In this document: piece after piece, positions 6,701 to 31,347 of the stretch
Position numbering within the stretch: position 1 is the stretch's first letter
How the letters are laid out: each line of letters opens with the position of its first letter
NCBI RefSeq assembly: GCF_034064985.1
Contig: NZ_CP139249.1
Location: forward strand, 806,001 to 870,000
Direction of reading: 5' to 3'
DNA: 64,000 nucleotides
Source: Acinetobacter pittii
GTDB taxonomy: Bacteria > Pseudomonadota > Gammaproteobacteria > Pseudomonadales > Moraxellaceae
Notes under the pieces: model-generated
What the model saw: the letters and a program-made list of their open reading frames with translations, nothing else
Told to the model about the DNA's origin: nothing
Databases searched by the model: none
Program-made: the position numbers and the translations under genes

Positions 6701-9700
6701 ATGCAGCAGGTAACAGCAGCAGTGTTAACGATACACAAACATATACAATCGATACCACAGCACCAAATGCACCTGTACTTGATCCGATCAATGCAACTGA
6801 CCCAGTGAGCGGTACAGCAGAAGCGGGTTCAACCGTGACTGTGACTTATCCTGATGGCACAACTGCAACAGTGGTAGCAGGTACAGATGGCACATGGTCA
6901 GTACCAAACCCGGGTAACCTGGTGGATGGTGATACAGTAACTGCAACAGCGACTGACCCTGCAGGCAATACATCATTGCCAGGTACAGGCACAGTCTCTG
7001 CAGACATCACACCGCCGGTGGTTGCACTTGATGACGTGTTGACCAATGACAGCACACCAGCACTTACGGGTACAGTGAACGATCCGACTGCCACTGTGGT
7101 TGTCAATGTAGATGGCACTGACTATCCGGCAGTGAACAATGGTGACGGCACCTGGACACTTGCAGACAATACACTTCCTGCGTTAACTGACGGTCCACAC
7201 ACCATTACCGTGACGGCAACAGATGCAGCAGGCAATGCAGGTACCGATACAGCAGTGGTGACGATTGATACCACAGCACCAAATGCACCGGTACTTGATC
7301 CAATCAATGCAACTGACCCAGTGAGCGGTACAGCAGAAGCGGGTTCAACCGTGACTGTGACTTATCCTGATGGCACAACTGCAACAGTGGTAGCAGGCAC
7401 AGACGGCACATGGTCAGTACCAAACCCGGGTAACCTGGTGGATGGTGATACAGTAACTGCAACAGCGACTGACCCTGCAGGCAATACATCATTGCCAGGT
7501 ACAGGCACAGTCTCTGCAGACATCACACCGCCGGTGGTTGCACTTGATGACGTGTTGACCAATGACAGCACACCAGCACTTACGGGTACAGTGAACGATC
7601 CGACTGCCACTGTGGTTGTCAATGTAGATGGCACTGACTATCCGGCAGTGAACAATGGTGACGGCACCTGGACGCTTGCAGACAATACACTTCCTGCGTT
7701 AACTGACGGTCCACACACCATTACCGTGACTGCAACAGACCCTGCAGGCAATGCAGGTACCGATACAGCAGTGGTGACCATTGATACCACAGCACCAAAT
7801 GCACCGGTACTTGATCCAATCAATGCAACTGACCCAGTGAGCGGTACAGCAGAAGCGGGTTCAACCGTGACTGTGACTTATCCTGATGGCACAACTGCAA
7901 CAGTGGTAGCAGGCACAGACGGCACATGGTCAGTACCAAACCCGGGTAACCTGGTGGATGGTGATACAGTAACTGCAACAGCGACTGACCCTGCAGGCAA
8001 TACATCATTGCCAGGTACAGGCACAGTCTCTGCAGACATCACACCGCCGGTGGTTGCGCTGGATGACGTGTTGACCAATGACAGCACACCAGCACTTACG
8101 GGTACAGTGAACGATCCGACTGCCACTGTGGTTGTCAATGTAGATGGCACTGACTATCCGGCAGTGAACAATGGTGACGGCACCTGGACACTTGCAGACA
8201 ATACACTTCCTGCGTTAACTGACGGTCCACACACCATTACCGTGACGGCAACAGATGCAGCAGGCAATGCAGGTACCGATACAGCAGTGGTAACGATTGA
8301 TACCACAGCACCAAATGCACCGGTACTTGATCCAATCAATGCAACTGACCCAGTGAGCGGTACAGCAGAAGCGGGTTCAACCGTGACTGTGACTTATCCT
8401 GATGGCACAACTGCAACAGTGGTAGCAGGCACAGACGGCACATGGTCAGTACCAAACCCGGGTAACCTGGTGGATGGTGATACAGTAACTGCAACAGCGA
8501 CTGACCCTGCAGGCAATACATCATTGCCAGGTACAGGCACAGTCTCTGCAGACATCACACCGCCGGTGGTTGCGCTGGATGACGTGTTGACCAATGACAG
8601 CACACCAGCACTTACGGGTACAGTGAACGATCCGACTGCCACTGTGGTTGTCAATGTAGATGGCACTGACTATCCGGCAGTGAACAATGGTGACGGCACC
8701 TGGACACTTGCAGACAATACACTTCCTGCGTTAACTGACGGTCCACACACCATTACCGTGACGGCAACAGATGCAGCAGGCAATGCAGGTACCGATACAG
8801 CAGTGGTAACGATTGATACCACAGCACCAAATGCACCGGTACTTGATCCAATCAATGCAACTGACCCAGTGAGCGGTACAGCAGAAGCGGGTTCAACCGT
8901 GACTGTGACTTATCCTGATGGCACCACTGCAACAGTGGTAGCAGGCACAGACGGCAGCTGGTCAGTACCAAACCCGGGTAACCTGGTGGATGGTGATACA
9001 GTAACTGCAACAGCAACTGACCCTGCAGGCAATACGTCATTGCCAGGTACAGGCACAGTGTCTGCAGACATCACAGCACCTGTGGTTGCGCTGGATGACG
9101 TGTTGACCAATGACAGCACACCAGCACTTACGGGTACAGTGAACGATCCGACTGCAACTGTGGTGGTGAACGTGGATGGCACTGACTATCCGGCAGTGAA
9201 CAATGGTGACGGCACCTGGACACTTGCAGACAATACACTGCCTGCGTTAACTGACGGTCCACACACCATTACCGTGACGGCAACAGATGCAGCAGGCAAT
9301 GCAGGTACCGATACAGCAGTGGTAACGATTGATACCACAGCACCAAATGCACCGGTACTTGATCCAATCAATGCAACTGACCCAGTGAGCGGTACAGCAG
9401 AAGCGGGTTCAACCGTGACTGTGACTTATCCTGATGGCACCACTGCAACAGTGGTAGCAGGCACAGACGGCAGCTGGTCAGTACCAAACCCGGGTAACCT
9501 GGTGGATGGTGATACAGTAACTGCAACAGCAACTGACCCTGCAGGCAATACGTCATTGCCAGGTACAGGCACAGTGTCTGCAGACATCACAGCACCTGTG
9601 GTTGCGCTGGATGACGTGTTGACCAATGACAGCACACCAGCACTTACGGGTACAGTGAACGATCCGACTGCAACTGTGGTGGTGAACGTGGATGGCACTG

Positions 9701-12700
9701 ACTATCCGGCAGTGAACAATGGTGACGGCACCTGGACGCTTGCAGACAATACACTGCCTGCGTTAACTGACGGTCCACACACCATTACCGTGACGGCAAC
9801 AGATGCAGCAGGCAATGCAGGTACAGATACAGCAGTGGTGACCATTGATACCACAGCACCAAATGCACCGGTACTTGATCCAATCAATGCAACTGACCCA
9901 GTGAGCGGTACAGCAGAAGCGGGTTCAACCGTGACTGTGACTTATCCTGATGGCACAACTGCAACAGTGGTAGCAGGCACAGACGGCACATGGTCAGTAC
10001 CAAACCCGGGTAACCTGGTGGATGGTGATACAGTAACTGCAACAGCGACTGACCCTGCAGGCAATACATCATTGCCAGGTACAGGCACAGTCTCTGCAGA
10101 CATCACACCGCCGGTGGTTGCGCTGGATGACGTGTTGACCAATGACAGCACACCAGCACTTAGCGGTACAGTGAACGATCCGACTGCCACTGTGGTTGTC
10201 AATGTAGATGGCACTGACTATCCGGCAGTGAACAATGGTGACGGCACCTGGACACTTGCAGACAATACACTTCCTGCGTTAACTGACGGTCCACACACCA
10301 TTACCGTGACGGCAACAGATGCAGCAGGCAATGCAGGTACCGATACAGCAGTGGTGACGATTGATACCACAGCACCAAATGCACCGGTACTTGATCCAAT
10401 CAATGCAACTGACCCAGTGAGCGGTACAGCAGAAGCGGGTTCAACCGTGACTGTGACTTATCCTGATGGCACCACTGCAACAGTGGTAGCAGGTACAGAT
10501 GGCACATGGTCAGTACCAAACCCAGGTAACCTGGTGGATGGCGATACGGTTACAGCAACAGCAACTGACCCTGCAGGCAATACATCATTGCCAGGTACAG
10601 GCACAGTCTCTGCAGACATCACACCGCCGGTGGTTGCGCTGGATGACGTGTTGACCAATGACAGCACACCAGCACTTAGCGGTACAGTGAACGATCCGAC
10701 TGCCACTGTGGTTGTCAATGTAGATGGCACTGACTATCCGGCAGTGAACAATGGTGACGGCACCTGGACGCTTGCAGACAATACACTTCCTGCGTTAACT
10801 GACGGTCCACACACCATTACCGTGACGGCAACAGATGCAGCAGGCAATGCAGGTACCGATACAGCAGTGGTGACCATTGATACCACAGCACCAAATGCAC
10901 CGGTACTTGATCCAATCAATGCAACTGACCCAGTGAGCGGTACAGCAGAAGCGGGTTCAACCGTGACTGTGACTTATCCTGATGGCACAACTGCAACAGT
11001 GGTAGCAGGCACAGACGGCACATGGTCAGTACCAAACCCGGGTAACCTGGTGGATGGTGATACAGTAACTGCAACAGCGACTGACCCTGCAGGCAATACA
11101 TCATTGCCAGGTACAGGCACAGTCTCTGCAGACATCACACCGCCGGTGGTTGCACTTGATGATGTGTTGACGAATGACAGCACACCAGCACTCACGGGTA
11201 CAGTGAACGATCCGACTGCAACTGTAGTTGTGAACGTGGATGGCACTGACTATCCGGCAGTGAACAATGGTGACGGCACCTGGACGCTTGCAGACAATAC
11301 ACTTCCTGCGTTAACTGACGGTCCACACACCATTACCGTGACTGCAACAGACCCTGCAGGCAATGCAGGTACCGATACAGCAGTGGTGACCATTGATACC
11401 ACAGCACCAAATGCACCGGTACTTGATCCAATCAATGCAACTGACCCAGTGAGCGGTACAGCAGAAGCTGGTTCAACCGTGACTGTGACTTATCCTGATG
11501 GCACAACTGCAACAGTGGTAGCAGGCACAGACGGCACATGGTCAGTACCAAACCCGGGTAACCTGGTGGATGGTGATACAGTAACTGCAACAGCGACTGA
11601 CCCTGCAGGCAATACATCATTGCCAGGTACAGGCACAGTCTCTGCAGACATCACACCGCCGGTGGTTGCGCTGGATGACGTGTTGACCAATGACAGCACA
11701 CCAGCACTTAGCGGTACAGTGAACGATCCGACTGCCACTGTGGTTGTCAATGTAGATGGCACTGACTATCCGGCAGTGAACAATGGTGACGGCACCTGGA
11801 CACTTGCAGACAATACACTTCCTGCGTTAACTGACGGTCCACACACCATTACCGTGACTGCAACAGACCCTGCAGGCAATGCAGGTACAGATACAGCAGT
11901 GGTGACCATTGATACCACAGCACCAAATGCACCGGTACTTGATCCAATCAATGCAACTGACCCAGTGAGCGGTACAGCAGAAGCTGGTTCAACCGTGACT
12001 GTGACTTATCCTGATGGCACAACTGCAACAGTGGTAGCAGGCACAGACGGCACATGGTCAGTACCAAACCCGGGTAACCTGGTGGATGGTGATACAGTAA
12101 CTGCAACAGCGACTGACCCTGCAGGCAATACATCATTGCCAGGTACAGGCACAGTCTCTGCAGACATCACACCGCCGGTGGTTGCGCTGGATGACGTGTT
12201 GACCAATGACAGCACACCAGCACTTAGCGGTACAGTGAACGATCCGACTGCCACTGTGGTTGTCAATGTAGATGGCACTGACTATCCGGCAGTGAACAAT
12301 GGTGACGGCACCTGGACACTTGCAGACAATACACTGCCTGCGTTAACTGACGGTCCACACACCATTACCGTGACGGCAACAGATGCAGCAGGCAATGCAG
12401 GTACAGATACAGCAGTGGTGACCATTGATACCACAGCACCAAATGCACCGGTACTTGATCCAATCAATGCAACTGACCCAGTGAGCGGTACAGCAGAAGC
12501 TGGTTCAACCGTGACTGTGACTTATCCTGATGGCACAACTGCAACAGTGGTAGCAGGCACAGACGGCACATGGTCAGTACCAAACCCGGGTAACCTGGTG
12601 GATGGTGATACAGTAACTGCAACAGCGACTGACCCTGCAGGCAATACATCATTGCCAGGTACAGGCACAGTCTCTGCAGACATCACACCGCCGGTGGTTG

Positions 12701-15700
12701 CGCTGGATGACGTGTTGACCAATGACAGCACACCAGCACTTAGCGGTACAGTGAACGATCCGACTGCCACTGTGGTTGTCAATGTAGATGGCACTGACTA
12801 TCCGGCAGTGAACAATGGTGACGGCACCTGGACGCTTGCAGACAATACACTTCCTGCGTTAACTGACGGTCCACACACCATTACCGTGACGGCAACAGAT
12901 GCAGCAGGCAATGCAGGTACCGATACAGCAGTGGTGACCATTGATACCACAGCACCAAATGCACCGGTACTTGATCCAATCAATGCAACTGACCCAGTGA
13001 GCGGTACAGCAGAAGCGGGTTCAACCGTGACTGTGACTTATCCTGATGGCACAACTGCAACAGTGGTAGCAGGCACAGACGGCACATGGTCAGTACCAAA
13101 CCCGGGTAACCTGGTGGATGGTGATACAGTAACTGCAACAGCGACTGACCCTGCAGGCAATACATCATTGCCAGGTACAGGCACAGTCTCTGCAGACATC
13201 ACACCGCCGGTGGTTGCACTTGATGATGTGTTGACGAATGACAGCACACCAGCACTCACGGGTACAGTGAACGATCCGACTGCAACTGTAGTTGTGAACG
13301 TGGATGGCACTGACTATCCGGCAGTGAACAATGGTGACGGCACCTGGACGCTTGCAGACAATACACTTCCTGCGTTAACTGACGGTCCACACACCATTAC
13401 CGTGACTGCAACAGATGCAGCAGGCAATGCAGGTACCGATACAGCAGTGGTGACCATTGATACCACAGCACCAAATGCACCGGTACTTGATCCAATCAAT
13501 GCAACTGACCCAGTGAGCGGTACAGCAGAAGCGGGTTCAACCGTGACTGTGACTTATCCTGATGGCACAACTGCAACAGTGGTAGCAGGCACAGACGGCA
13601 CATGGTCAGTACCAAACCCGGGTAACCTGGTGGATGGTGATACAGTAACTGCAACAGCGACTGACCCTGCAGGCAATACATCATTGCCAGGTACAGGCAC
13701 AGTCTCTGCAGACATCACACCGCCGGTGGTTGCGCTGGATGACGTGTTGACCAATGACAGCACACCAGCACTGACTGGTACAGTGAACGATCCGACTGCA
13801 ACTGTGGTGGTGAACGTGGATGGCACTGACTATCCGGCAGTCAACAATGGTGACGGCACCTGGACACTTGCAGACAATACACTGCCTGCGTTAACTGATG
13901 GTCCACACACCATTACCGTGACGGCAACAGATGCAGCAGGCAATGCAGGTACAGATACAGCAGTGGTGACGATTGATACCAGCGTTCCAGTCGTATCTTT
14001 AGATGATGTGGTTACTAATGACACGACTCCTGCTTTAACAGGAGCGATTAATGACCCAACAGCAACAGTGGTTGTCAATGTGGATGGCACTGACTATCCA
14101 GCAGTGAACAATGGTGATGGCACCTGGACGCTTGCAGACAATACACTGCCTGCGTTAACTGATGGTCCACACACCATTACCGTGACTGCAACAGACCCTG
14201 CAGGCAATGCAGGTACAGATACAGCAGTGGTGACGATTGATACTAGCGTTCCAGTCGTATCTTTAGATGATGTGGTTACTAATGACACGACTCCTGCTTT
14301 AACAGGAGCGATTAATGACCCAACAGCAACAGTTGTTGTGAATGTGGATGGCACAGATTATCCAGCAGTAAACAATGGCGATGGCACATGGACACTTGCA
14401 GACAATACTTTACCTGCATTAATAGATGGTCCTCATACTGTAACTGTAACTGCAACTGATCCAGCTGGTAATACTGCTACAGATACAGCTACGCTTACTA
14501 TTGATACAGTCCCTGCAGACCTGATCGGTGCGATCACGATTCCTGAAGACTTAAATGGCGACGGTATCTTGAATGCAGACGAGCTAGGCACAGACGGCAG
14601 CTTCAATGCACAAGTGGCGTTGGGACCTGATGCAATCGATGGCACAGTAGTGAATATCAACGGTACTAACTACACTGTGACTGCAGCTGATATTACTAAC
14701 GGCTTCATCACCGCAGCGATTCCTGTGACAGGCGAAGGCCCTGTAGCGATCCATGCAGAAGCAGTCGATCCACAAGGTAACGTAGATGTTGCAGATGCAG
14801 ACGTGACAGTAACGGTTGACACAGTTCCTGCAGACTTGATCGGTGCGATCACGATTCCTGAAGACTTAAATGGCGACGGTATCTTGAATGCAGACGAGCT
14901 AGGCACAGACGGCAGCTTCAATGCACAAGTGGCGTTGGGACCTGATGCAATCGACGGCACAGTGGTGAATGTGAACGGTACTAACTACACCGTGACTGCA
15001 GCTGACCTTGCAAACGGCTTCATCACTGCAGCGATTCCTGTAACAGGCGAAGGCCCAGTAGCGATCCATGCAGAAGCAATCGATCCACAAGGTAACGTAG
15101 ATGTTGCAGATGCAGACGTCACCGTAACGGTTGACACAGTTCCTGCAGACTTGATCGGTGCGATCACGATTCCTGAAGACTTAAATGGCGACGGTATCTT
15201 GAATGCAGACGAGCTTGGCACAGACGGCAGCTTCAATGCACAAGTGGCGTTGGGACCTGATGCAATCGACGGCACAGTGGTGAATGTGAACGGTACTAAC
15301 TACACCGTGACTGCAGCTGACCTTGCAAACGGCTTCATCACTGCAGCGATTCCTGTAACAGGCGAAGGCCCAGTAGCGATCCATGCAGAAGCAATCGATC
15401 CACAAGGTAACGTAGATGTTGCAGATGCAGACGTCACCGTAACGGTTGACACAGTTCCTGCAGACTTGATCGGTGCGATCACGATTCCTGAAGACTTAAA
15501 TGGCGACGGTATCTTGAATGCAGACGAGCTTGGCACAGACGGCAGCTTCAATGCACAAGTGGCGTTGGGACCTGATGCAATCGACGGCACAGTAGTGAAT
15601 GTCAACGGTACTAACTACACCGTGACTGCAGCTGATATTACCAACGGCTTCATCACCGCAGCGATTCCTGTAACAGGCGAAGGCCCAGTAGCGATCCATG

Positions 15701-18700
15701 CAGAAGCAATCGATCCACAAGGTAACGTAGATGTTGCAGATGCAGACGTCACCGTAACGGTTGACACAGTTCCTGCAGACTTGATCGGTGCGATCACGAT
15801 TCCTGAAGACTTAAATGGCGACGGTATCTTGAATGCAGACGAGCTTGGCACAGACGGCAGCTTCAATGCACAAGTGGCGTTGGGACCTGATGCAATCGAC
15901 GGCACAGTAGTGAATGTCAACGGTACTAACTACACCGTGACTGCAGCTGATATTACCAACGGCTTCATCACCGCAGCGATTCCTGTAACAGGCGAAGGCC
16001 CAGTAGCGATCCATGCAGAAGCAATCGATCCACAAGGTAACGTAGATGTTGCAGATGCAGACGTCACCGTAACGGTTGACACAGTTCCTGCAGACTTGAT
16101 CGGTGCGATCACGATTCCTGAAGACTTAAATGGCGACGGTATCTTGAACGCAGACGAGCTTGGCACAGACGGCAGCTTCAATGCACAAGTGGCGTTGGGA
16201 CCTGATGCAATCGATGGCACAGTGGTGAATGTTAACGGTACTAACTACACCGTGACAGCAACTGACCTTGCAAACGGCTACATCACCGCAGCTCTGGATG
16301 CAACAGCAGCAGATCCTGTGACTGGTCAGATTGTGATTCATGCTGAGGCTGTAGATGCTCAAGGTAACGTCGATGTTGCTGATGCAGATGTAACAGTAAC
16401 AATTGATACAACTCCACAAGATGTGATTACAGCGATCACGATTCCTGAAGACTTAAATGGCGACGGTATCTTGAATGCAGACGAGCTAGGCACAGACGGC
16501 AGCTTCAATGCACAAGTGGCGTTGGGACCTGATGCAATCGATGGCACAGTGGTGAATGTTAACGGTACTAACTACACCGTGACAGCAACTGACCTTGCAA
16601 ACGGCTACATCACCGCAGCTCTGGATGCAACAGCAGCAGATCCTGTGACTGGTCAGATTGTGATTCATGCTGAGGCTGTAGATGCTCAAGGTAACGTCGA
16701 TGTTGCTGATGCAGATGTAACAGTAACAATTGATACAACTCCACAAGATGTGATTACAGCGATCACGATTCCTGAAGACTTAAATGGCGACGGTATCTTG
16801 AATGCTGCAGAACTTGGTACAGACGGTACATTCAATGCACAAGTGGCGTTGGGACCTGATGCAATCGATGGCACAGTGGTAAATGTTAACGGTACCAACT
16901 ACACCGTGACTGCAGCTGACCTTGCGAATGGCTTCATCACAGCAACTCTGGATGCAACAGCAGCAGATCCTGTGACTGGTCAGATTGTGATTCATGCTGA
17001 GGCTGTAGATGCACAAGGTAACGTCGATGTTGCAGATGCAGATGTAACCTTAACAATTGATACAACTCCACAAGATCTGATTACAGCGATCACGATTCCT
17101 GAAGACTTAAATGGCGACGGTATCTTGAATGCTGCAGAACTTGGTACAGACGGTACATTCAATGCACAAGTGGCGTTGGGACCTGATGCAATCGATGGCA
17201 CAGTGGTAAATGTTAACGGTACCAACTACACCGTGACTGCAGCTGACCTTGCGAATGGCTTCATCACAGCAACTCTGGATGCAACAGCAGCAGATCCTGT
17301 GACTGGTCAGATTGTGATTCATGCTGAGGCTGTAGATGCACAAGGTAACGTCGATGTTGCAGATGCAGATGTAACCTTAACAATTGATACAACTCCACAA
17401 GATCTGATTACAGCGATTACGGTTCCTGAAGACTTAAATGGCGACGGTATCTTGAATGCTGCAGAACTTGGTACAGACGGCACCTTCAATGCACAAGTGG
17501 CGTTGGGACCGGATGCAATCGATGGCACAGTAGTGAATGTGAACGGTACTAACTACACCGTGACAGCAGCTGACCTTGCAAACGGCTTCATCACTGCAGC
17601 GATTCCTGTGACAGGCGAAGGCCCTGTAGCGATCCATGCAGAAGCAGTGGATGCACAAGGTAACCTTGATGTTGCAGATGCAGACGTCACCGTGACTGTA
17701 GATACTTTACCTGCAGACCTGATCGGTGCGATCACGATTCCTGAAGACTTAAATGGCGACGGTATCTTGAATGCAGACGAGCTAGGCACAGACGGCAGCT
17801 TCAATGCACAAGTGGCATTGGGACCTGATGCAATCGATGGCACAGTGGTGAATGTTAACGGTACTAACTACACCGTGACAGCAGCTGATATTACCAACGG
17901 CTTCATCACCGCAGCGATTCCAGTGACAGGCGAAGGCCCTGTAGCGATCCATGCAGAAGCAGTCGATCCACAAGGTAACGTCGATGTTGCAGATGCAGAC
18001 GTCACCGTGACTGTAGATACCTTGCCTGCAGACCTGATCGGTGCGATCACGATTCCTGAAGACTTAAATGGCGACGGTATCTTGAACGCAGACGAGCTAG
18101 GCACAGACGGCAGCTTCAATGCACAAGTGGCGTTGGGACCTGATGCAATCGATGGCACAGTAGTGAATATCAACGGTACTAACTACACTGTGACTGCAGC
18201 TGATATTACTAACGGCTTCATCACCGCAGCGATTCCTGTGACAGGCGAAGGCCCTGTAGCGATCCATGCAGAAGCAGTCGATCCACAAGGTAACGTAGAT
18301 GTTGCAGATGCAGACGTGACAGTAACGGTTGACACAGTTCCTGCAGACTTGATCGGTGCGATCACGATTCCTGAAGACTTAAATGGCGACGGTATCTTGA
18401 ATGCAGACGAGCTAGGCACAGACGGCAGCTTCAATGCACAAGTGGCGTTGGGACCTGATGCAATCGATGGCACAGTGGTGAATGTTAACGGTACTAACTA
18501 CACCGTGACAGCAACTGACCTTGCAAACGGCTACATCACCGCAGCTCTGGATGCAACAGCAGCAGATCCTGTGACTGGTCAGATTGTGATTCATGCTGAG
18601 GCTGTAGATGCTCAAGGTAACGTCGATGTTGCTGATGCAGATGTAACAGTAACAATTGATACAACTCCACAAGATGTGATTACAGCGATCACGATTCCTG

Positions 18701-21700
18701 AAGACTTAAATGGCGACGGTATCTTGAATGCTGCAGAACTTGGTACAGACGGTACATTCAATGCACAAGTGGCGTTGGGACCTGATGCAATCGATGGCAC
18801 AGTGGTAAATGTTAACGGTACCAACTACACCGTGACTGCAGCTGACCTTGCGAATGGCTTCATCACAGCAACTCTGGATGCAACAGCAGCAGATCCTGTG
18901 ACTGGTCAGATTGTGATTCATGCTGAGGCTGTAGATGCACAAGGTAACGTCGATGTTGCAGATGCAGATGTAACCTTAACAATTGATACAACTCCACAAG
19001 ATCTGATTACAGCGATCACGATTCCTGAAGACTTAAATGGCGACGGTATCTTGAATGCTGCAGAACTTGGTACAGACGGTACATTCAATGCACAAGTGGC
19101 GTTGGGACCTGATGCAATCGATGGCACAGTGGTAAATGTTAACGGTACCAACTACACCGTGACTGCAGCTGACCTTGCGAATGGCTTCATCACAGCAACT
19201 CTGGATGCAACAGCAGCAGATCCTGTGACTGGTCAGATTGTGATTCATGCTGAGGCTGTAGATGCACAAGGTAACGTCGATGTTGCAGATGCAGATGTAA
19301 CCTTAACAATTGATACAACTCCACAAGATCTGATTACAGCGATTACGGTTCCTGAAGACTTAAATGGCGACGGTATCTTGAATGCTGCAGAACTTGGTAC
19401 AGACGGCACCTTCAATGCACAAGTGGCGTTGGGACCGGATGCAATCGATGGCACAGTAGTGAATGTGAACGGTACTAACTACACCGTGACAGCAGCTGAC
19501 CTTGCAAACGGCTTCATCACTGCAGCGATTCCTGTGACAGGCGAAGGCCCTGTAGCGATCCATGCAGAAGCAGTGGATGCACAAGGTAACCTTGATGTTG
19601 CAGATGCAGACGTCACCGTGACTGTAGATACTTTACCTGCAGACCTGATCGGTGCGATCACGATTCCTGAAGACTTAAATGGCGACGGTATCTTGAATGC
19701 AGACGAGCTAGGCACAGACGGCAGCTTCAATGCACAAGTGGCATTGGGACCTGATGCAATCGATGGCACAGTGGTGAATGTTAACGGTACTAACTACACC
19801 GTGACAGCAGCTGATATTACCAACGGCTTCATCACCGCAGCGATTCCAGTGACAGGCGAAGGCCCTGTAGCGATCCATGCAGAAGCAGTCGATCCACAAG
19901 GTAACGTCGATGTTGCAGATGCAGACGTCACCGTGACTGTAGATACCTTGCCTGCAGACCTGATCGGTGCGATCACGATTCCTGAAGACTTAAATGGCGA
20001 CGGTATCTTGAACGCAGACGAGCTAGGCACAGACGGCAGCTTCAATGCACAAGTGGCGTTGGGACCTGATGCAATCGATGGCACAGTAGTGAATATCAAC
20101 GGTACTAACTACACTGTGACTGCAGCTGATATTACTAACGGCTTCATCACCGCAGCGATTCCTGTGACAGGCGAAGGCCCTGTAGCGATCCATGCAGAAG
20201 CAGTCGATCCACAAGGTAACGTAGATGTTGCAGATGCAGACGTGACAGTAACGGTTGACACAGTTCCTGCAGACTTGATCGGTGCGATCACGATTCCTGA
20301 AGACTTAAATGGCGACGGTATCTTGAATGCAGACGAGCTAGGCACAGACGGCAGCTTCAATGCACAAGTGGCGTTGGGACCTGATGCAATCGATGGCACA
20401 GTGGTGAATGTTAACGGTACTAACTACACCGTGACAGCAACTGACCTTGCAAACGGCTACATCACCGCAGCTCTGGATGCAACAGCAGCAGATCCTGTGA
20501 CTGGTCAGATTGTGATTCATGCTGAGGCTGTAGATGCTCAAGGTAACGTCGATGTTGCTGATGCAGATGTAACAGTAACAATTGATACAACTCCACAAGA
20601 TGTGATTACAGCGATCACGATTCCTGAAGACTTAAATGGCGACGGTATCTTGAATGCTGCAGAACTTGGTACAGACGGTACATTCAATGCACAAGTGGCG
20701 TTGGGACCTGATGCAATCGATGGCACAGTGGTAAATGTTAACGGTACCAACTACACCGTGACTGCAGCTGACCTTGCGAATGGCTTCATCACAGCAACTC
20801 TGGATGCAACAGCAGCAGATCCTGTGACTGGTCAGATTGTGATTCATGCTGAGGCTGTAGATGCACAAGGTAACGTCGATGTTGCAGATGCAGATGTAAC
20901 CTTAACAATTGATACAACTCCACAAGATCTGATTACAGCGATTACGGTTCCTGAAGACTTAAATGGCGACGGTATCTTGAATGCTGCAGAACTTGGTACA
21001 GACGGCACCTTCAATGCACAAGTGGCGTTGGGACCGGATGCAATCGATGGCACAGTAGTGAATGTGAACGGTACTAACTACACCGTGACAGCAGCTGACC
21101 TTGTAAACGGCTTCATTACAGCGACTCTTGCCGCAACAGCAGCAGATCCTGTGACTGGTCAGATTGTGATTCATGCTGAGGCTGTAGATGCACAAGGTAA
21201 CGTAGATGTTGCTGATGCAGACGTAACGGTAACTCTAGATGTTACTCCACCTGATATCACTACAACTGTGTTAGCAATTGACCCAGTTACTGCTGATAAC
21301 ATCTTGGATGCGACAGAAGCTGGTGGATCAGTGACCTTAACAGGTACATTGACCAACATCCCTACAGATGCAGTAACAACAGGTGTTGTGGTTACTGTAA
21401 ATGGTGTTGACTATACAGCCACAGTTGATGCCGTAGCAGGTACTTGGACAGTTGATGTAGCTGGTAGTGGTCTTGCAGCAGATTCAGACTTAACTGTTGA
21501 TGCTACTGCGACATTCACAGACCTCGCAGGAAACGCTAGTACACTTCAAGATACGCAAACTTATACTCTTGCAAGCTCTATCATTGCTTTCGATAACACT
21601 GATACAGCTGTACTTGCTCCTCAACCATTGCTTGTACAAGATGATGCAGCACTAGGAAGCAACACTTATCTAGCACTTGTATCGCTTGCTGGACTTGATT

Positions 21701-24700
21701 TGCAGTTAGGATCAGAGTCAATTGGCTTTACAGTAGGTGCTGGTCAAGAAGGCAATGCGACCTTTACTTACAGCGCTTTAATTGGAGTAGATGCATTATC
21801 TGATTACTCTCTAGTAGTTCAGAAACTTGACCCAGTAACAGGCCAATGGACTTCGGTCTATGGTGGTGGCCAAGCAGATATTCTTGATCTTACTTTACTA
21901 GGTTCAACTCCTGGTGTGGTTCTTGAAGGTCTAGAAGAAGGACAATACCGTGCATTCATGACTTACAACGGTCTTCTAGGTATCGGTTTACTGGGTACCT
22001 TAACTGGCACAATGGATGTTTATGACACAACACAAGTAGGTGGCTACTACACTGAAGTTGCTGCAGGTAACGTCATTACAGAAATAAATGATGCAGGTGA
22101 GGTAGATGTTGTAACTCCAACAACAGTTATAAGTGAGGTTAATGGTCAGCCTGTTGTAGCAGATGGCACGAGTATCACTGGTACTTACGGTACATTAGTG
22201 ATCAACCTGGATGGTTCATACACTTATACGCCTACTGCTAGTGCGGCAGGTGTAGGACAAACTGATCAGTTTACATATACCTTAATCGATCCTTTAACTG
22301 ATGATACGGCTCAAGCAAATCTCAATATTCAATTGAGCTCTGTGAAAGCAGTAGACAATGTAGTGATGGCAGAAATTAATCCTGAACCATTGCTTGTGGC
22401 AGACGATGTTGCTCTAGGTAGTTCAACTTACCTTGCAGCAGTATCGTTAGCAGGTATCGACTTACAATTGCTTGGTAACGATGCAATAGAGTTTACTGTT
22501 GATCCAAACCGCGAAGGTACAGCAACGTTCACATTCGATGCGTTAATTACTGCCGATTTACTCAGTGATTATGCGATTGTTGTTCAGAAATTTGATGAAG
22601 CAACAGGTCAATGGGTATCGATTGGTGGTACTAACCCAGAAGCTTCACTCATCGATCTAACGCTTATCGGTGGAACACCAACAGCAGTTCTTGAAGGATT
22701 GGATGCTGGACAGTATCGCGCATTCATCGGATATGAAGGTTTACTTGGTGTAGGTTTGGGCGGAACATTAACTGGTACGATGGATGTCTATAATCCATAC
22801 ATCGTGGCTGGTTACTCTGTTGAACCGATCTCTGGTAATGTCATCAAAGATGCGAGCCTCACTGGTGAAGTTGATGCAGCAAGCAGCAGTGCTGTGATCT
22901 CTCAAGTGAATGGTGTTGCGGTTGACCCAGTTGCTGGTGCAACAATTACTGGTACATACGGTACATTGGTGATTGACCAAGATGGTAACTACACTTATAC
23001 CCCAACTGTAGACGGAGCAAACCTAGGTCAGGTAGATCAATTTACCTACACCTTGCTTGATCCTGTAACGGGTAACACTTCTGAGGCAACACTTTACGTT
23101 CGTCTCGATAGTGACAGTGTAGATATGACTTGGAACGATGCAGATCCATCTCAACCAGCTGTAATTACTAGTCCGCTTCCAGTAGATGCGATGGATAACG
23201 TTGCTTCAGCTGAAATAGACATGGTTTATCCAGTAACGACTGAGGTACTTGATAACGCGATTAGCTACAACTGGTTACTCGGTGTCGGTGGTATCGTTAT
23301 CGGTTCTAAAGAAGGTACAGCGACATTTACAGTTGATCCAGGTAATCTGACTGATGCGATTATTGCAGTGAACTTTGGTTCGGTTGCTACGGTTGTCGAC
23401 GGTTTACATGTGGTATTAACACGATTAAATCCAGATGGCACTCGTACTGTAGTTGCAGATAGCTCTGATACTGGCGTGATCGATTTGTTAGGTATCTTTG
23501 GTTCTGAAGTTCAATTCAAGATTGATAACTTAAGTGCCGGTACTTATGAGTTGTTCATGGAAAGCAACACATTACTTACAGCTTTAGGTAGTGTGACTGC
23601 GGATATCACATTGAATCATGGTGATATTACTCAACCGCCTGTACTGGTTGTTGATCCTGTAACTGGTAATGTACTCGCTGATGATAACTCTGCTGTTTAC
23701 GGTACAAACTATGTGCCGGACTACATTACGACAACTTCTGTAGTAACCACGGTGACAGCTGAAAATGGTAATACGGCTACAATTGTAGCGGGTACTCCAG
23801 AAACGATTATTGGTGCATACGGAACTCTGACTATTAATTCAGATGGTACTTATAGCTATCAGGCAACTGCGGATATGGCGAATGTAGGTAAAGTTGATAG
23901 CTTCACTTACACAGTGACAGATCCAGTTACTGGTAGAACTGATACCGCTACATTACATGTTCAAGTTGGTTCGCCAGATGTTGATGTAACTTGGAATACA
24001 GCAGATCCTTCGGCAGATGCTACACTTCCAACGCCATCAGTAATAGCTGATACAGATGATGCAACAATCAGCATGGCACCAGTGGTAGACCCAGTTGTAG
24101 ATGTTGCGAGTGGTAACGTGACTATCGGTAACCTAGCTGGCTTCCCACCACTACCTGTATTAAGCAGTACAGTAACCTCTAGTCAGTTTACAATAGCTGC
24201 AAATACAGTAAGTGATGTACATGTACAGTTGAACTACACTGCATCGTTAAGCTTGTCGGCTCTTCCAACGACTGGATATACAATTCAGCAATTGGTTGGC
24301 GGAACATGGGTAAATACAGCGTACTCTGGTTCTGCGACAGCATTAGCAGGTGTGTTGGGTGCCCCAGCATATTCAGCAGATGTACCTCATTTGTCAGAAG
24401 GGACTTATCGTGTAGTATTCAGCTTATCAAGTCTGATTTCTCTAGGTGCTGTAACTCTAGATTCTGTAGTGACAACTACAGCGACTCATCTAGATCAATA
24501 CACACCAGATGGTCAAACCGACTGGATTACTGGCAACGTTCTTACTAATGATGTGGTAGAAGGTACTCAGCTCTATGTAATGAACTCAACAACTGGTACT
24601 TATGAACTAGCTGCTGGACAAGGAGTTGATACAGGTGAAGGCACATTGTATCTATACAATGATGGTTCTTACTTCTACAAACCATTAGACAGCGCTGCAA

Positions 24701-25215
24701 ATGCGACAGTTGATGTGATTGATTACAAGTTAGTTTCGGTGATTGATGGTAGTGAATACACTTCTTCATTGACGATTAACTTGAGTCAAGAGTTGAATAG
24801 CCTTGCAGTGAGTACTGCGGCAAATGATACATTTGCTCTTGGTAATGGCTCTGATACCTTGATCTACAACACATTAACAGCTGCAAGCGTAACTAATGCA
24901 ACTGGTGGTAATACAACAGCTGGTGGTGTAGATGTATGGACTGACTTCCATGTAGGTAATACTGCAACGGATGATCAGGCTGATAAGATTGACTTAAGTA
25001 ACTTGTTAATTGGTTCACAAACTAACTTAACAATCGGTCAATATGTGACAGTAAGTTATGATGCTGGTACTCAAACTGCGACAATCAGCGTAGACCGTGA
25101 TGGTGGATTACTTGTAGAAGGTACTTACACTGAAACACCATTGCTTCAATTGACTAACCTCACTGGTCCAGTCACATTGAATGACTTGATCAACAATGGT
25201 CAAATCATTTTCTAA
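3775..25215 (+). CDS. bap: Giant Bap-family biofilm-associated adhesin (7146 aa, type I secretion substrate)
   Basis: One uninterrupted frame encodes a 7146-residue acidic, nearly Cys-free surface adhesin of the BapA/Bap/LapF class. The order is: (a) residues 1-95, a Bap prefix-like domain; (b) an Asp-Ala run at about 97-108; (c) a hydrophobic segment at about 157-174 ([15 protein letters not shown]) followed by an acidic linker; (d) mixed Ig-like modules 190-994; (e) fourteen 172-residue double Ig modules 995-3402; (f) two 88-residue modules to 3578; (g) twenty-one 105/109-residue modules with an EF-hand-like loop 3579-5823; (h) one further Ig module; (i) three or four divergent C-terminal cadherin/VCBS-like modules 5934-7010; (j) a T1SS target domain with an RTX-like GNGSDTL motif, ending in hydrophobic residues. 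The protein should be exported by a TolC-type type I system, which is not encoded nearby. Known A. baumannii Bap is comparable or larger; repeat number varies between strains. Confidence 0.93.
5605..6756 (+). repeat. Two tandem 576-bp modules in bap
   Basis: Two 192-codon units (5605-6180, 6181-6756) each join an approximately 82-residue Ig-like half (starting AP.APVI.PVNG) to an approximately 110-residue module ([10 protein letters not shown] onward). From about 5842/6418 the two copies look base-for-base the same for more than 300 bases, indicating a recent duplication. The approximately 110-residue module type also occurs singly near 4342, 4675 and 5275, and once after the repeat arrays at 21244. 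Confidence 0.85.
6757..13980 (+). repeat. Array of 14 tandem 516-bp Ig-like repeats in bap
   Basis: Fourteen units of exactly 172 codons run head to tail without a linker. Each unit is two Ig-like sandwiches: one starting [16 protein letters not shown] and one starting [17 protein letters not shown]. Protein differences between units are few (T/S at GTDGTW, P/A at ITPPVV, T/S at PALTG, P/A at TATDPAGN). At the DNA level neighbouring copies share long identical runs, with synonymous variants such as GTTGCACTTGATG against GTTGCGCTGGATG shuffled between copies, which is a sign of recombination. Confidence 0.95.
13981..14508 (+). repeat. Two tandem 264-bp half-modules in bap
   Basis: Two 88-codon units (13981-14244, 14245-14508) begin [16 protein letters not shown] and repeat only the second half of the 516-bp unit. 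They form the junction between the 516-bp array and the EF-hand array. Confidence 0.9.
14509..21243 (+). repeat. Array of 21 tandem 315/327-bp repeats with EF-hand-like loop in bap
   Basis: Twenty-one units follow without gaps: eleven of 105 codons and ten of 109 codons. Each contains [12 protein letters not shown](D/A)EL, which fits the EF-hand loop pattern (D1, N3, D5, G6, N9, E12). Short units end with [19 protein letters not shown]; long ones carry [19 protein letters not shown] instead. Unit types are VPADLIG, LPADLIG, TPQDVIT and TPQDLIT, and their order is itself repeated (see the 1926-bp repeat). Confidence 0.95.
16738..20589 (+). repeat. 1926-bp higher-order tandem duplication inside bap
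   Basis: Units 8-13 of the EF-hand array (16738-18663) are repeated as units 14-19 (18664-20589), in the same order of types and with matching synonymous choices at every place compared by eye. Unit 20 begins a third round. Six-unit blocks of 3 x 327 plus 3 x 315 give the 1926-base period. Confidence 0.88.
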
Positions 25216-25232
25216 TCTGATAAGTGACTTAT

Positions 25233-25268
25233 AAAAAAAAGAGCCTTCGGGCTCTTTTTTTATTTTTA
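25233..25268 (+). terminator. Rho-independent terminator of bap
   Basis: GAGCC-TTCG-GGCTC at 25241-25254 is preceded by an A-run and followed by seven T. It is a strong intrinsic terminator 18-50 bases after the bap stop codon. Confidence 0.92.
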
Positions 25269-25360
25269 AACAATACGTTAACTTAGCTTTTTATATGTTC
25301 ATGCTATGATGGATTGAAAACTTTATAGAACAACAAATAACGGATAGGGACTGATTTCGA

Positions 25361-27016
25361 GTGACAGCATTTTTAAACTTCCAAAGACAACTGAACCTTT
25401 GGTTAGAACATATCGCTCCACATGCTTCCGCTTTTCAGGATGAAACAATTTTATTTATATCTTATGGGCCTAAAGACCAAAGATGTAACGTATGGCATAG
25501 TGAAAAAACAAGCTTTTCACAAGCAAAAATACAATTATTAGCTTTCATTAATGACCAGTTTGCACAGGAAATACTTACTGATTATATAAAAATTGATATT
25601 GCATATAATTTAACGAAGCAAGCTTGGCAAGTAATAGAGCAGCGGGTCCATCAGCAATTTCACAATAACCACTACCGTAAAGGTATTGGGTTTGATGAAC
25701 ACTGTTCAGTGGCTTTTCTTGAGCAAGAGATTTATGGAAAAGCAATCATTCGAGGTTTGAGCTATGACAAACCCAATTTTTTTGATGAAACAAATCTGAA
25801 TTATGCAATTAAGCAAAAATATAACGCGACTAAACCACAGATTAAACTACAAGAGCTACAAGACATTTGGACTTTTGATACCTACGCAGCATTTTATGAA
25901 AATGGGCAATTCATTAATTTAGCGAGCGGTTATGATGCGAATGGTATTAGGGCGATTTCGAGCAATAAGAAACAGCATTTTCAGTCGTTAATTGAAAAAA
26001 ATTCGGCATTTTTGCATGATCAGATTCAAGAAAATGGCAAATTTATCTATGGCTATTTTTCTGCCTATGATCGAGATATTCGTAACTACAATACGGTACG
26101 CCACTGTACTTCGGTATATGCGTTGCTGGAAACATTTGAATTGCAGAGCAAACCAGAATATTGGCCCAAGATACATGCTGCTATCCAATATGCACTGACC
26201 AACTTTTATAAAGAAAAAGACTCTGAAACCAGCTTTATGATTGATGGTAAAGAAGGGGAATTTGAAATTAAATTAGGTGCCAATGCGGCTGCTATTTTAA
26301 TGTTAACTAAATATCAAGAAATTACCCAAAAAAATGATTATCAAAAATATGCAGAAAAACTAGCAAATGGTATTTTAAAATTAGTCGATTCAAATGGCTC
26401 AACAACTCATGTATTAAATTATCCAGATTATGATTTAAAAGAAAAATTCAGAATTATTTATTATGATGGTGAAGCTGCTTTAGGTTTATTAAGGTTATAT
26501 CAAATTAACCAAGATACTAGTTTATTAGAAACTATTAAATTAATGTTTGAATATTTTATTAAAAATAGATATGAAAAATATCATGACCATTGGTTAAGTT
26601 ATTGTACTAATGAACTCACTAAAATATGCCCTGAAGATAAATATTTTATTTTTGGTTTAAATAATTATTTAAAACATTTTATTTTTATTAGAAATCGAAA
26701 AACGACCTACGCAACTTTATTAGAAATGTTAATGGCTGCTTATAAAATGGTGAACCGCTTAAAAGAGCAGGGCCGAACGGTACTTTTTGAGCAGGCGTAT
26801 ATGCCTGAGCTTCAAAAGCTAATTGAGTTTAGAGCTGATTTTCAAACGACAGGATTTTTTTATCCGGAAATGGCGATGTATATGGCTCGGCCAGATAAAA
26901 TTTTACATGCGTTTTATATTCGTCATGATCGTTTTCGAGTACGGATTGATGACCAAGAACACAACTTATCGGGTTACATCGCTTACGTTAAAGATTACAA
27001 AGGTGATGAGCCATGA
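25361..27016 (+). CDS. Uncharacterised protein, probable alpha/alpha-toroid (six-hairpin) fold, partner of CapA-like protein
   Basis: I do not recognise a named family for this 551-residue soluble protein; no signal peptide or membrane segment is visible. Residues 1-140 form a separate N-terminal region. From about 150 onwards there are helix-hairpin motifs resembling six-hairpin glycosidase or epimerase-like barrels: YNTVRHCTSVYALLETF (about 242), LGANAAAILMLTKYQ (about 304), YYDGEAALGLLRLYQ (about 365), YEKYHDHWLSYC (about 405). The start is GTG 25361, with TAGGGA about 10 bases upstream. It overlaps the next gene by four bases (ATGA), which implies translational coupling. It may act on a polymer made or modified together with the CapA-like protein; this is inference from fold pattern and pairing only. 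Confidence 0.75.
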   Translation: MTAFLNFQRQLNLWLEHIAPHASAFQDETILFISYGPKDQRCNVWHSEKTSFSQAKIQLLAFINDQFAQEILTDYIKIDIAYNLTKQAWQVIEQRVHQQFHNNHYRKGIGFDEHCSVAFLEQEIYGKAIIRGLSYDKPNFFDETNLNYAIKQKYNATKPQIKLQELQDIWTFDTYAAFYENGQFINLASGYDANGIRAISSNKKQHFQSLIEKNSAFLHDQIQENGKFIYGYFSAYDRDIRNYNTVRHCTSVYALLETFELQSKPEYWPKIHAAIQYALTNFYKEKDSETSFMIDGKEGEFEIKLGANAAAILMLTKYQEITQKNDYQKYAEKLANGILKLVDSNGSTTHVLNYPDYDLKEKFRIIYYDGEAALGLLRLYQINQDTSLLETIKLMFEYFIKNRYEKYHDHWLSYCTNELTKICPEDKYFIFGLNNYLKHFIFIRNRKTTYATLLEMLMAAYKMVNRLKEQGRTVLFEQAYMPELQKLIEFRADFQTTGFFYPEMAMYMARPDKILHAFYIRHDRFRVRIDDQEHNLSGYIAYVKDYKGDEP

Positions 27017-28743
27017 AGTATCAACCTGTTGAAATCAAATTATTAGCTCATATCGATACTACAAATTTTGATGAAGCTATATGGCAATTCGAATTTGATG
27101 ATGATATTTCAACAATACTGCTAATCGACTACGCATTAGAACAATTTCAGCAAAAAAAAGTACAAGCTCAAGATGTCTATGTTGTGCCACAAAATATGAG
27201 TAAGCAAATTGGACAGCAAAATCTAGGTTTAAAAACATCTGAAAGTTATACATTTACCGAGTTATTGCAGTTCTTAATTTTTACTCAAGCAGCAGATGTA
27301 AAAGATACTTTAAGTAAGATGCTCTGCGGTACAAATGAGCAAGCTTATTTAATTTTGTCAAAAAGAGCTGCTACCTATAATTTAAATTTGAAAAAAGAAA
27401 GTACACAAAACCAGTTAAAACATTTGTTTTTATTGCTTAGAAAAATTTTTAGTTACCCAATTGAAATAAAAAAACTTTTTTTTATTAAAGAGCTTATTTT
27501 TAAAGGAAAATCCTATCTTCCTCAGACCTTATTAATGGCACAGAACGTAGTAGAGGTCTTATATCTTACAAACTCATTTAGAAAAATTTATCTCACTTTC
27601 TTTGAAGAAAACCAAACTATAGGTATCTTTTTATTCTTAGATGATATTCATCGTGCTGAGCACCTGGTTCCTTACTATCATTGGTTCCAAGCACAGAATG
27701 TAAAACCTAAAGTTTGCTCAACTCCAAGTGGCATTATTAACATTTTAGGGGATACCTACTTTGGGGAAGTCTACACTGGAAAGCGTAAGGCGAGAGGACA
27801 AACGGATGCTCTGCAGCAATATGGATATGATTATTCATTCGATAAAATAAAAGCTTTTTTAGGTGAACATGACTTAAGTATTGCTAACTTTGAAGCGGTA
27901 TTTTCTTTAGAAAACCAATCTCCTTTAGGTCATAAAAAGACTTTTATTCTTAAAGCTGATGCTGAACCAACATTAGCAGCATTCAAAAATATTCACCTTA
28001 ATCATGTGGTGTTGGCAAACAACCATCTAAAAGACTATGGGGATCGTGGGCTGACCTATACATTACAACAGTTGGATCAGGCTAACATTTCTTATATTGG
28101 TGCTGGTGTAAACCAAAAAGATGCTCATAGCTACTTTGAAATCACTTTTAATAACAAGCATTACGCTATTTTTAACGGCTATTGGCACAGAGACACGGCC
28201 TATTTAGATTATGATTTTTATGCTTTAGGTCATAAAAATGGAGTGGCGTGTTTAAATGGTGTTTTGCTTGAACAAATAGGTCGCTATAGGCTGACTCATC
28301 CTGAACATAAAATTATTGTTATTTGCCATTGGGGTGTCGATTTTAAACCCATTACAAAAGTGCAGAATAAGCTTGCTACGATTCTAACCCAAGCGGGTGC
28401 AGATCTTATCGTTGGTCATGGGGCTCATACTATTCAGCCTGTCCAGATCATTAACCAAAAGCCAGTCGTATTTGGTATTGGCAATGCTGTGTTTAATAGC
28501 AATGGCGAATATGAAAAACATAATGCTTTACCTTATGGTTGTATAGCACGGCTAGATTTGTCAAAAGATTTACTTCGCCTTTATCCAATTTACACCAATA
28601 ATTTGAAAACATTCTGGCAGCCGTATCCAGTCAATGCTGAAGATTTCTTAAAGGCGAGTACCTACATGACATCTTTACTAACCCCTGAAAATTACATCGC
28701 TACCCAAGATAATTTAGGGGCATATATTGAAATTAAATTTTAG
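27013..28743 (+). CDS. CapA-family (PGA_cap) metallophosphatase-like protein with carboxypeptidase-like N-terminal half
   Basis: In this 576-residue protein, residues about 240-495 form the CapA/PgsA domain (PF09587). Visible motifs are NILGDTYFGE (metal-binding GD, about 244), SIANFEAVF, VLANNHLKDYGD (about 335), VICHWGVDF (about 439) and VGHGAHTIQPVQ (about 468), with GIGNAVFNS after it. Residues about 30-125 look like the helical region of a serine D-Ala-D-Ala carboxypeptidase (S11), with STILLIDYALEQF where SxxK-MTAYVALE would be and FTELLQFLIFTQAAD where LLxxLLIxSGND would be. The catalytic Lys and SxN are missing, so that part would be inactive. CapA proteins act in poly-gamma-glutamate or related polymers, but no CapB/CapC ligase genes are near. 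Its last stop codon overlaps the convergent lipoprotein gene. Confidence 0.8.
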   Translation: MKYQPVEIKLLAHIDTTNFDEAIWQFEFDDDISTILLIDYALEQFQQKKVQAQDVYVVPQNMSKQIGQQNLGLKTSESYTFTELLQFLIFTQAADVKDTLSKMLCGTNEQAYLILSKRAATYNLNLKKESTQNQLKHLFLLLRKIFSYPIEIKKLFFIKELIFKGKSYLPQTLLMAQNVVEVLYLTNSFRKIYLTFFEENQTIGIFLFLDDIHRAEHLVPYYHWFQAQNVKPKVCSTPSGIINILGDTYFGEVYTGKRKARGQTDALQQYGYDYSFDKIKAFLGEHDLSIANFEAVFSLENQSPLGHKKTFILKADAEPTLAAFKNIHLNHVVLANNHLKDYGDRGLTYTLQQLDQANISYIGAGVNQKDAHSYFEITFNNKHYAIFNGYWHRDTAYLDYDFYALGHKNGVACLNGVLLEQIGRYRLTHPEHKIIVICHWGVDFKPITKVQNKLATILTQAGADLIVGHGAHTIQPVQIINQKPVVFGIGNAVFNSNGEYEKHNALPYGCIARLDLSKDLLRLYPIYTNNLKTFWQPYPVNAEDFLKASTYMTSLLTPENYIATQDNLGAYIEIKF

Positions 28744-29456
28744 GGATATTGTTTGTATGTCGATAAAATAGTTTGAAGTTGTACTGGCGTAAAGCCCAAA
28801 TTTCTTAAGCCACCACTACCTAATTTACATTCGGCGCTTGCCATGATGTTGGTTGGAGTACGCTTTGTAGCTTTTGGTGCACAAACATGTTTTAGTCCAA
28901 ACACATGTCCCATTTCATGCACGCTACCAGCCTGAATATTATAATTGAGGCGGTTCCAGTCTAATAAAATAAAGGGTTTACCATTATTACGAAAAGCTCT
29001 ACTTGTTACATCTTCAAATTTCCATTTCGTTGAGTAGGCATCATAAATAAAAACAATCACTTCTTTACTTGCAGTTCGTTTCGGAAAACACGTATTTACA
29101 CTGGCAGGAATGGTTTCAATCGTAATTGGGTAGGGCTGATTAATCTGTTGTTTTAAATCACAATGTAATTTTGAAAACTCTTCATAAGGAATATAACGAT
29201 GTAACTTAAATTTAAAAATTTTATTATTTTTATCATCTACATAGTATTTATTTAATATTTTAATTTCTTTACGCATCTGTTGATAATTATCAAACTTTGT
29301 AGCTTCTGGAGAGTTGGTGGTAAATACAAAAGTAACCGGAATAATAGGGCGACCATCTGTAGAGACTTTAGATGTTTCTCCTAAAGGAAGAGGAGGGCGT
29401 GTAGTACAAGAAACGCATAGTAAAGTGCCAGTAATCACCAGTAATGTTTTTTTCAT
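28740..29456 (-). CDS. Metzincin-like zinc metallopeptidase lipoprotein
   Basis: The start is placed at ATG 29456 (238 aa), where GAGGG lies 8 bases upstream and the protein begins with a lipoprotein signal MKKTLLVITGTLLCVSC. A longer in-frame start at 29489 would bury that signal. The motif HEMGHVFGLKH (about residues 177-187) is the full metzincin zinc site HExxHxxGxxH, and a Met (NIMAS) downstream may be the Met-turn. Several Cys residues suggest disulphides. It is expected to be an outer- or inner-membrane-anchored periplasmic or surface protease; the substrate is unknown. It converges with the CapA-like gene with a 4-base overlap, so the two are not co-transcribed. Confidence 0.82.
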   Translation of the reverse strand: MKKTLLVITGTLLCVSCTTRPPLPLGETSKVSTDGRPIIPVTFVFTTNSPEATKFDNYQQMRKEIKILNKYYVDDKNNKIFKFKLHRYIPYEEFSKLHCDLKQQINQPYPITIETIPASVNTCFPKRTASKEVIVFIYDAYSTKWKFEDVTSRAFRNNGKPFILLDWNRLNYNIQAGSVHEMGHVFGLKHVCAPKATKRTPTNIMASAECKLGSGGLRNLGFTPVQLQTILSTYKQYP

Positions 29457-29522
29457 GCAGATTTCCCTCAAGCCCACCTTGGATTGCATTTAGTTTTGTT
29501 CAAAATTTTTTATATGATATGA

Positions 29523-31236: not shown

Positions 31237-31347
31237 AAGGGAAATATAAAAAAGAGAATACACCATTATACCGAATTGCGATTCAAGCTGAACCAATAAT
31301 CTTAGCTCAGCCAATGAATCGAATATTAAAGTACATGCTAATTTGAA

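Follow-up and report, generated by a model that had tools for sequence, protein, structure and literature searches.

The window analysed here is a stretch of 64,000 nucleotides from the 3.89 Mb genome of Acinetobacter pittii (NCBI RefSeq assembly GCF_034064985.1, contig NZ_CP139249.1, positions 806,001 to 870,000 of the forward strand), and the coordinates below are counted from its first letter. The work concerns two genes of the window, called A and B, which follow the gene for the giant adhesin Bap. The pair represents one variant of a more widespread system in which A is the constant component, a point new to this work. In the window A stands beside a surface protein with an Asp-X repeat (Asp-Ala, Asp-Ser or Asp-Gly dipeptides), namely the run carried by the adjacent Bap. 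The features needed are listed below.

3775..25215, + strand: bap, open reading frame (ORF) for the giant adhesin Bap of 7146 amino acids (aa), the candidate substrate
4063..4107, + strand: Asp-Ala/Ser run in Bap, the proposed target; 15 residues (97-111), seven units, synonymous codons varied
25234..25261, + strand: terminator-like hairpin between bap and A (0.1 predicted from shuffled sequences, 1 observed)
25361..27016, + strand: gene A, ORF of 551 aa with a GTG start, the proposed core protein of the system
25361..25957, + strand: A residues 1-199, alpha/beta domain in the predicted model
25958..27013, + strand: A residues 200-551, predicted six-hairpin (alpha/alpha)6 barrel resembling the AGE superfamily and cellobiose 2-epimerases
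27013..28743, + strand: gene B, ORF of 576 aa overlapping A by ATGA
27013..27717, + strand: B residues 1-235, predicted S11/PBP5-like fold that lacks the catalytic SxxK, a dead carboxypeptidase-like half
27724..28740, + strand: B residues 238-576, CapA/PGA_cap metallophosphatase-like and MslH-like half retaining the conserved motifs

The initial annotation had taken the ATGA overlap as the mark of a coupled pair, and the gene-neighbourhood survey found the homologues together. Among 149 genomes of the genus, B (E up to 1e-25) was detected in 39, and 38 of these also carried A. The description as a two-protein system held in part: the two genes co-occur, but the unit is A, which was present in 47 of the 149 genomes, had no B match in nine of the 47 and changes its partners. 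The one B-bearing genome of the 39 that gave no A match (L238; G119 C1:1612900-1622900) has a short match to the Bap N-terminus and perhaps represents a decaying locus.

Predicted folds of A and B

The AlphaFold model of A, for which the window and the collection loci described below served as input, reached a pLDDT (predicted local distance difference test) of 93. Residues 200-551 are predicted to form the six-hairpin barrel that the initial annotation had proposed for the first protein, and a structural search with the model returned cellobiose 2-epimerases as the closest structures; the listed matches cover approximately residues 200-551 only. The likeness to the AGE superfamily (N-acylglucosamine and cellobiose 2-epimerases) lies in this barrel, whereas A differs in its additional N-terminal domain, in its repeat-protein context and in having no sequence match to AGE superfamily members among PDB sequences. 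The sequence profile of A gave nothing convincing against the PDB (top match old yellow enzymes, E 0.26), and no Pfam or NCBIfam family was matched. Pfam scans of 47 aligned A sequences yielded weak, scattered matches to 37 families (25 listed), among them the toroid families LANC, C5-epimerase, GH88 and GH76. H248, H350, H410, H534, D409, E418, R526, D530 and D531 of the barrel were invariant in the 47-row alignment; H350, H410 and H534 may correspond to the catalytic histidines of the AGE enzymes, judged by residue numbering and chain ends.

Several A homologues bear the name poly(glycerol-phosphate) alpha-glucosyltransferase (TagE) in public records. The assignment of A to the GT4 glycosyltransferases that this naming implies was rejected, as window A and the three homologues tested had no NCBIfam match and the predicted fold is a barrel and not GT-B. 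Two A-GT4 fusions were seen; since one bears the name TagE, the label may have spread from the fusion partner. The Klebsiella aerogenes 'tagE' (L251, 11914-15048, + strand) is such an A-GT4 fusion, adjoins pieces of an Asp-Ser 'clumping factor' and is a possible origin of the name.

The model of B, predicted from the same input (pLDDT 85.5), showed a PBP5/6-like fold at residues 5-228 and an MslH-like CapA fold at residues 238-576, so that both proteins were modelled with the folds guessed from the sequence. The N-terminal half had been described as patterned on an S11 D-Ala-D-Ala carboxypeptidase with the SxxK lysine and the SxN motif lost, and this agrees with a 13-row alignment, inspected by eye: STIL occupies the SxxK place in window B, Lys was present there in 0/13 rows, and SxN and KTG were unrecognisable at the matching places. 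SFRK at residue 188 lies elsewhere and is not the SxxK site. SxN and KTG are retained in the stand-alone S11 partners of A. Pairwise BLAST gave no support for the S11 half, and the profile comparison to S11 was weak (probability 7.5, E 0.0047); the identity of this half was settled because the predicted structure is joined by longer relatives with the order Mur ligase, S11-like domain and CapA (L110, 1063 aa; L132, 1064 aa; L169, 1115 aa), of which B is the counterpart of the last two domains. The Pfam S11 cut-off was passed by L132 and L169, L110 having no S11 hit. In L169 no SxxK was seen at the catalytic helix, the only such string being STGK at 616 elsewhere (by eye).

The CapA-like nature of the C-terminal half and its intact motifs, also part of the initial annotation, were borne out by a PGA_cap profile match of E 2.2e-43 (149 bits, cut-off 27) and by invariant GD, NNHxxD, HWG and GHGxH motifs among the aligned B relatives. 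The score against NCBIfam NF038314 (MslH) was 30.5 bits, below the cut-off of 700. The half resembles the lasso-peptide epimerase MslH and the CapA (PGA_cap) family in fold and motif residues, but differs in being fused to a dead S11 fold and tied to A and adhesins in the absence of CapB and CapC.

Asp-X repeats and exchangeable partners of A

A scan of a genome collection gave 482 stretches with A relatives, of which the best 80 were fetched and form the basis of the collection counts; ORFs were called mechanically and runs were searched in the fetched DNA only, so that loci whose adhesin starts outside it were scored as misses. A run of at least five Asp-Ala/Ser units was found at 42 of the 80 loci. 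Among 932 non-A ORFs 43 carried such a run, and 36 of these directly adjoined A while 40 lay within two ORFs of it. The relatives with Asp-Ala, Asp-Ser or, once, Asp-Gly runs nearby belong to Bacillota, Alpha- and Gammaproteobacteria, and in Bacillota the cell-wall proteins that A follows have Asp-Ala or Asp-Ser runs. The longest run had 991 units (L067).

Plasmid loci showed the same association: at 9 of 11 loci fetched from 54 matching records (Agrobacterium, Nitratireductor, Sulfitobacter, Klebsiella, Enterococcus, Staphylococcus) a run of at least four units was present, the two without a run being L255 and L248, the latter with the adhesin end only. Type I secretion genes flank A in Agrobacterium, Nitratireductor and Klebsiella. 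In an even sample of the phylum A was found in 14/398 genomes, and 5 of 14 loci taken from 12 of these 14 genomes (the window genome and G156 left out) had an Asp-X run, one being (Asp-Gly)x88 in an autotransporter. This autotransporter gene (L271, 5787-8957, + strand) lies immediately upstream of the A homologue and adds a third type both of repeat and of export route. The repeat proteins are thus exported as type I adhesins, as LPXTG proteins or as an autotransporter, which indicates that the common factor is the repeat and not the exporter.

Within the genus, a Bap-like ORF was present in 39 and a CapA relative in 27 of 40 fetched A loci selected from 58 match rows, so the adhesin link suspected in the initial annotation stands. 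A run of 7-8 units was found in all 30 of the loci with the best matches to the Bap N-terminus, every one from an A-bearing genome, in comparison to 1/20 Bap-like regions from genomes lacking A, which are more distant relatives. These 20 regions were hand-picked from the Bap matches of 18 genomes; a contig end lies within 2 kb in L227 and L231, and the Bap match of L238 was not re-found. The exception, G140, has Asp-Ser only, and its next same-strand gene downstream encodes a full-length SdgA-like glycosyltransferase (27% identity, E 2.4e-33). The varied codons of the run in the window indicate that it is maintained as protein. For the alpha- and beta-BAPs of Acinetobacter, De Gregorio 2015 (PMC4647330) describes the DA insertion and SD/AD tracts of these adhesins and the lap genes adjoining beta-BAPs; A and B are unmentioned in the sections of that paper covered.

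The remaining genus loci encode varying sets of other partners, namely ATP-grasp YheC/D, S11 proteins whose motifs are intact, hexapeptide acyltransferases, SdgA/B-like GT4 enzymes and metalloproteases. Beyond the genus, A also occurs in fusions with ATP-grasp, Mur, CapA-Mur or GT4 domains, and the first three kinds of fusion link their domains to A.

The partners were compared with the repeat type. SdgA/B-like glycosyltransferases, called at E < 1e-20 to two seeds, were linked to 7/16 Ser-rich and 0/26 Ala-rich loci (Fisher p 4e-4, a value that exaggerates independence because the relatives have common ancestry), the Ser-rich count being 8/16 at 1e-10. Both A-GT4 fusions (L251, L267) lie near Asp-Ser runs. 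Linked Mur or ATP-grasp genes were found at 6/16 Ser-rich and 6/26 Ala-rich loci, and a scheme in which glycosyltransferases serve serine and ligases serve alanine was therefore rejected outside the A-Mur fusions. Ten A-Mur or A-CapA-Mur fusions share their stretch with an Ala-rich run (L089, L091, L092, L093, L179, L252, L254, L258, L260, L268) and one with an Asp-Ser run (L259); in this tally the Mur domains of L254 and L258 come from the record annotation, the distance between run and A reaches 6 kb (L179), and the run of L259 occupies an open frame absent from the ORF list, on a contig with N stretches. No run of at least five units was found by the further A-Mur fusions L090, L094, L095, L175, L180, L261, L264, L265, L270 and L272. 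Since the glycosyltransferase tracks serine while A and the ligases do not, the latter track the shared Asp or the backbone, and the genomic context suggests that A and the ligases act there and the glycosyltransferase on serine.

Proposed modification of the repeat and alternative explanations

As relatives of the pair accompany surface proteins with Asp-Ala or Asp-Ser repeats, A and B probably represent one form of a cytoplasmic system dedicated to modifying Asp-X repeats of surface proteins before export, the substrate here being the run in Bap. The lack of an obvious signal peptide in A and B (by eye) is consistent with a cytoplasmic site. The pair had been suggested to modify or sense a peptide-like or glycan polymer next to the Bap locus; the link to the adhesin survives, but the likely substrate is the Asp-X repeat of Bap itself rather than a separate polymer. 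A would be the core that recognises the repeat and is probably an enzyme altering the Asp common to all repeats, at its side chain or backbone centre. That A binds the run and also modifies its Asp, substrate and modification taken jointly, is favoured to about the same degree. SdgA/B-like glycosyltransferases would add groups to the serines of Ser repeats, and Mur-type or ATP-grasp ligases, which accompany either repeat kind, would act on the carboxylate of the common Asp. In B, the dead S11 fold may bind the repeat once it has been modified, and the CapA domain may edit the product as a metal-dependent epimerase or hydrolase.

There is a precedent for enzymes dedicated to such repeats. SdgA/SdgB and GtfC/GtfD glycosylate the Ser-Asp repeat adhesins of staphylococci (PMC3794999, PMC7029136), and reports on SesJ and SdrJ place 'glycosyltransferase' genes next to such repeat proteins (PMC7029136, PMC8360574). 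As in the A loci, dedicated enzymes lie by a surface protein with an Asp dipeptide repeat, and A has homologous GT4 enzymes among its exchangeable partners (L058 against NF047880 SdgA, E 1.6e-67; L246 against SdgB, 7.3e-230). The A system differs in that neither predicted fold nor family makes A a glycosyltransferase, many of the repeats are nearly serine-free, and Mur, ATP-grasp, S11 and CapA modules participate. No description of A with Mur or ATP-grasp ligases and Asp-X repeats was found in the parts of the open-licence literature covered.

The stalks of many biofilm adhesins are built from Asp-Ala and Ser-Asp repeats. To our knowledge, the sole modification described for such stalks is the glycosylation of serine by SdgA/B and their kin. 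A is a marker of, and candidate enzyme for, repeats nearly devoid of a glycosylatable hydroxyl, in Gram-positive and Gram-negative bacteria and across the three export routes; whether Asp-Ala stalks are modified, and how, becomes a directly testable question, and the gene name TagE on relatives of A is called into question.

Several observations weigh against modification of the repeat by this system. No run was found at 38 of the 80 collection loci, many of these, not all, owing to an unfetched adhesin start, nor in the fetched DNA of 9 of the 14 phylum-sample loci, several of which lie near contig ends. The common ancestry of the fetched relatives inflates all counts, and the 30/30 versus 1/20 difference is between close orthologues on one side and more distant relatives on the other. 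Nor are Asp-Ser runs confined to genomes with A (G140). No linked glycosyltransferase was found at 9/16 Ser-rich loci (8/16 at the laxer cut-off), the ligases show no preference for Ala-rich runs, and at 20/26 Ala-rich loci neither a Mur nor an ATP-grasp relative lies within reach of A, so that either A alone would have to suffice or the ligase is located elsewhere. In the window genome no dedicated ligase was found and the run in Bap has only seven units. The sole Mur-domain match, considered as a dedicated ligase and rejected, is MurF-like (28% identity) and is read by us as the housekeeping MurF; a YheCD-type ATP-grasp relative was not found there (2/12 genomes had one). Finally, bap and A are kept apart by the terminator-like hairpin, so A and B may be on their own transcript, requiring a promoter of their own or read-through; a simple scan, the same as for the hairpin, found no sigma-70-like promoter in 25180-25420.

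As to the chemistry of the proposed modification, amide conjugation is put forward tentatively. It is conceivable, though we would not bet on it, that A is at the centre of a so far unrecognised system spanning phyla, which would attach amino acids, peptides or amines of other kinds to the Asp side chains of long Asp-X repeats by means of ligases recruited from wall synthesis. If so, a polyanionic linker would become a rod that is neutral, protease-resistant or able to be cross-linked. BapA of Paracoccus denitrificans, an adhesin with 891 Asp-Ala units that was identified from gel slices, is reported to raise surface hydrophobicity (PMC5588039); conjugation could account for this despite the anionic repeat, A not having been searched for in that species.

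It is unlikely that A and B instead introduce D-amino acids as epimerases and so make the linker protease resistant, an explanation to which the nearest structures of both proteins lend some weight, since these are cofactor-free epimerases (sugar 2-epimerases for A, the peptide epimerase MslH for B) and peptides with D-residues are natural ligands for a dead D,D-carboxypeptidase fold. MslH requires His88/Asp91 and His295/Asp11 (PMC10406935), and the presumed counterparts in B are all four invariant in the B alignment: H338/D341, placed by motif and spacing, H472, placed by taking range 458-494 to 281-317 as ungapped, and D247, placed by chain ends. Such residues are, however, generally common to CapA-like metallophosphatases, the equivalence of the A histidines to the catalytic histidines of cellobiose 2-epimerase depends on residue numbering, and the Mur, ATP-grasp and glycosyltransferase partners are left unexplained.

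Equally improbable is a role of A as a non-catalytic chaperone that holds the charged repeat ready for export and serves as a docking platform for partners. The many Bacillota loci with A by repeats and none of the searched partners would fit such a role, as would the fusion of A to differing enzyme types, but numerous His, Asp, Glu and Arg positions of the barrel are invariant across the 47 rows, as in an active site.

The earlier proposal, in which A and B synthesise or sense a distinct polymer (peptide or glycan; a CapA-like capsule), is very unlikely: B belongs to the PGA_cap family and Mur and ATP-grasp ligases are among the partners elsewhere, as in polymer synthesis, but a repeat protein adjoins A in most loci with a readable neighbour, and the window genome lacks CapC (PF14102 absent) and has PgsB below cut-off (TIGR04012, 20.8 bits against 222.7), which rules out synthesis of a polyglutamate (Cap/Pgs) capsule and agrees with the absence of CapB and CapC stated in the initial annotation.

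Neighbouring genes and further A loci

At some loci A lies in other surroundings. In L058, L059, L063 and L066-L068 it occupies other sites and is accompanied by a different adhesin (Asp-Ser whenever a run is visible), by an acyltransferase and, in stretches long enough to include it, by an SdgA-like glycosyltransferase; some of these genomes also carry the A/B locus. A distant A relative (L097, 811-2682, + strand; 29% identity) has an apparent membrane segment (by eye), and no Asp-X repeat was noted at this short locus. In Virgibacillus (L164, 9872-14349, + strand) A, a small sortase-like protein (by eye), an ATP-grasp protein and a D-Ala-D-Ala ligase homologue are encoded consecutively near an Asp-Ala protein.

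In the window, a small putative metzincin is encoded convergently with B (28740-29489, - strand); its M10/M12 matches were weak and below cut-off, and its relatives remain adjacent to B in most loci of the genus. Other A loci carry HExxH proteases of the MXAN_6640 type, unrelated to the metzincin of the window. A hexapeptide acetyltransferase gene (30604-31314, - strand), with CatB-like profile matches below cut-off, is syntenic with A and B across the genus, and relatives with the hexapeptide fold are partners of A at other loci.

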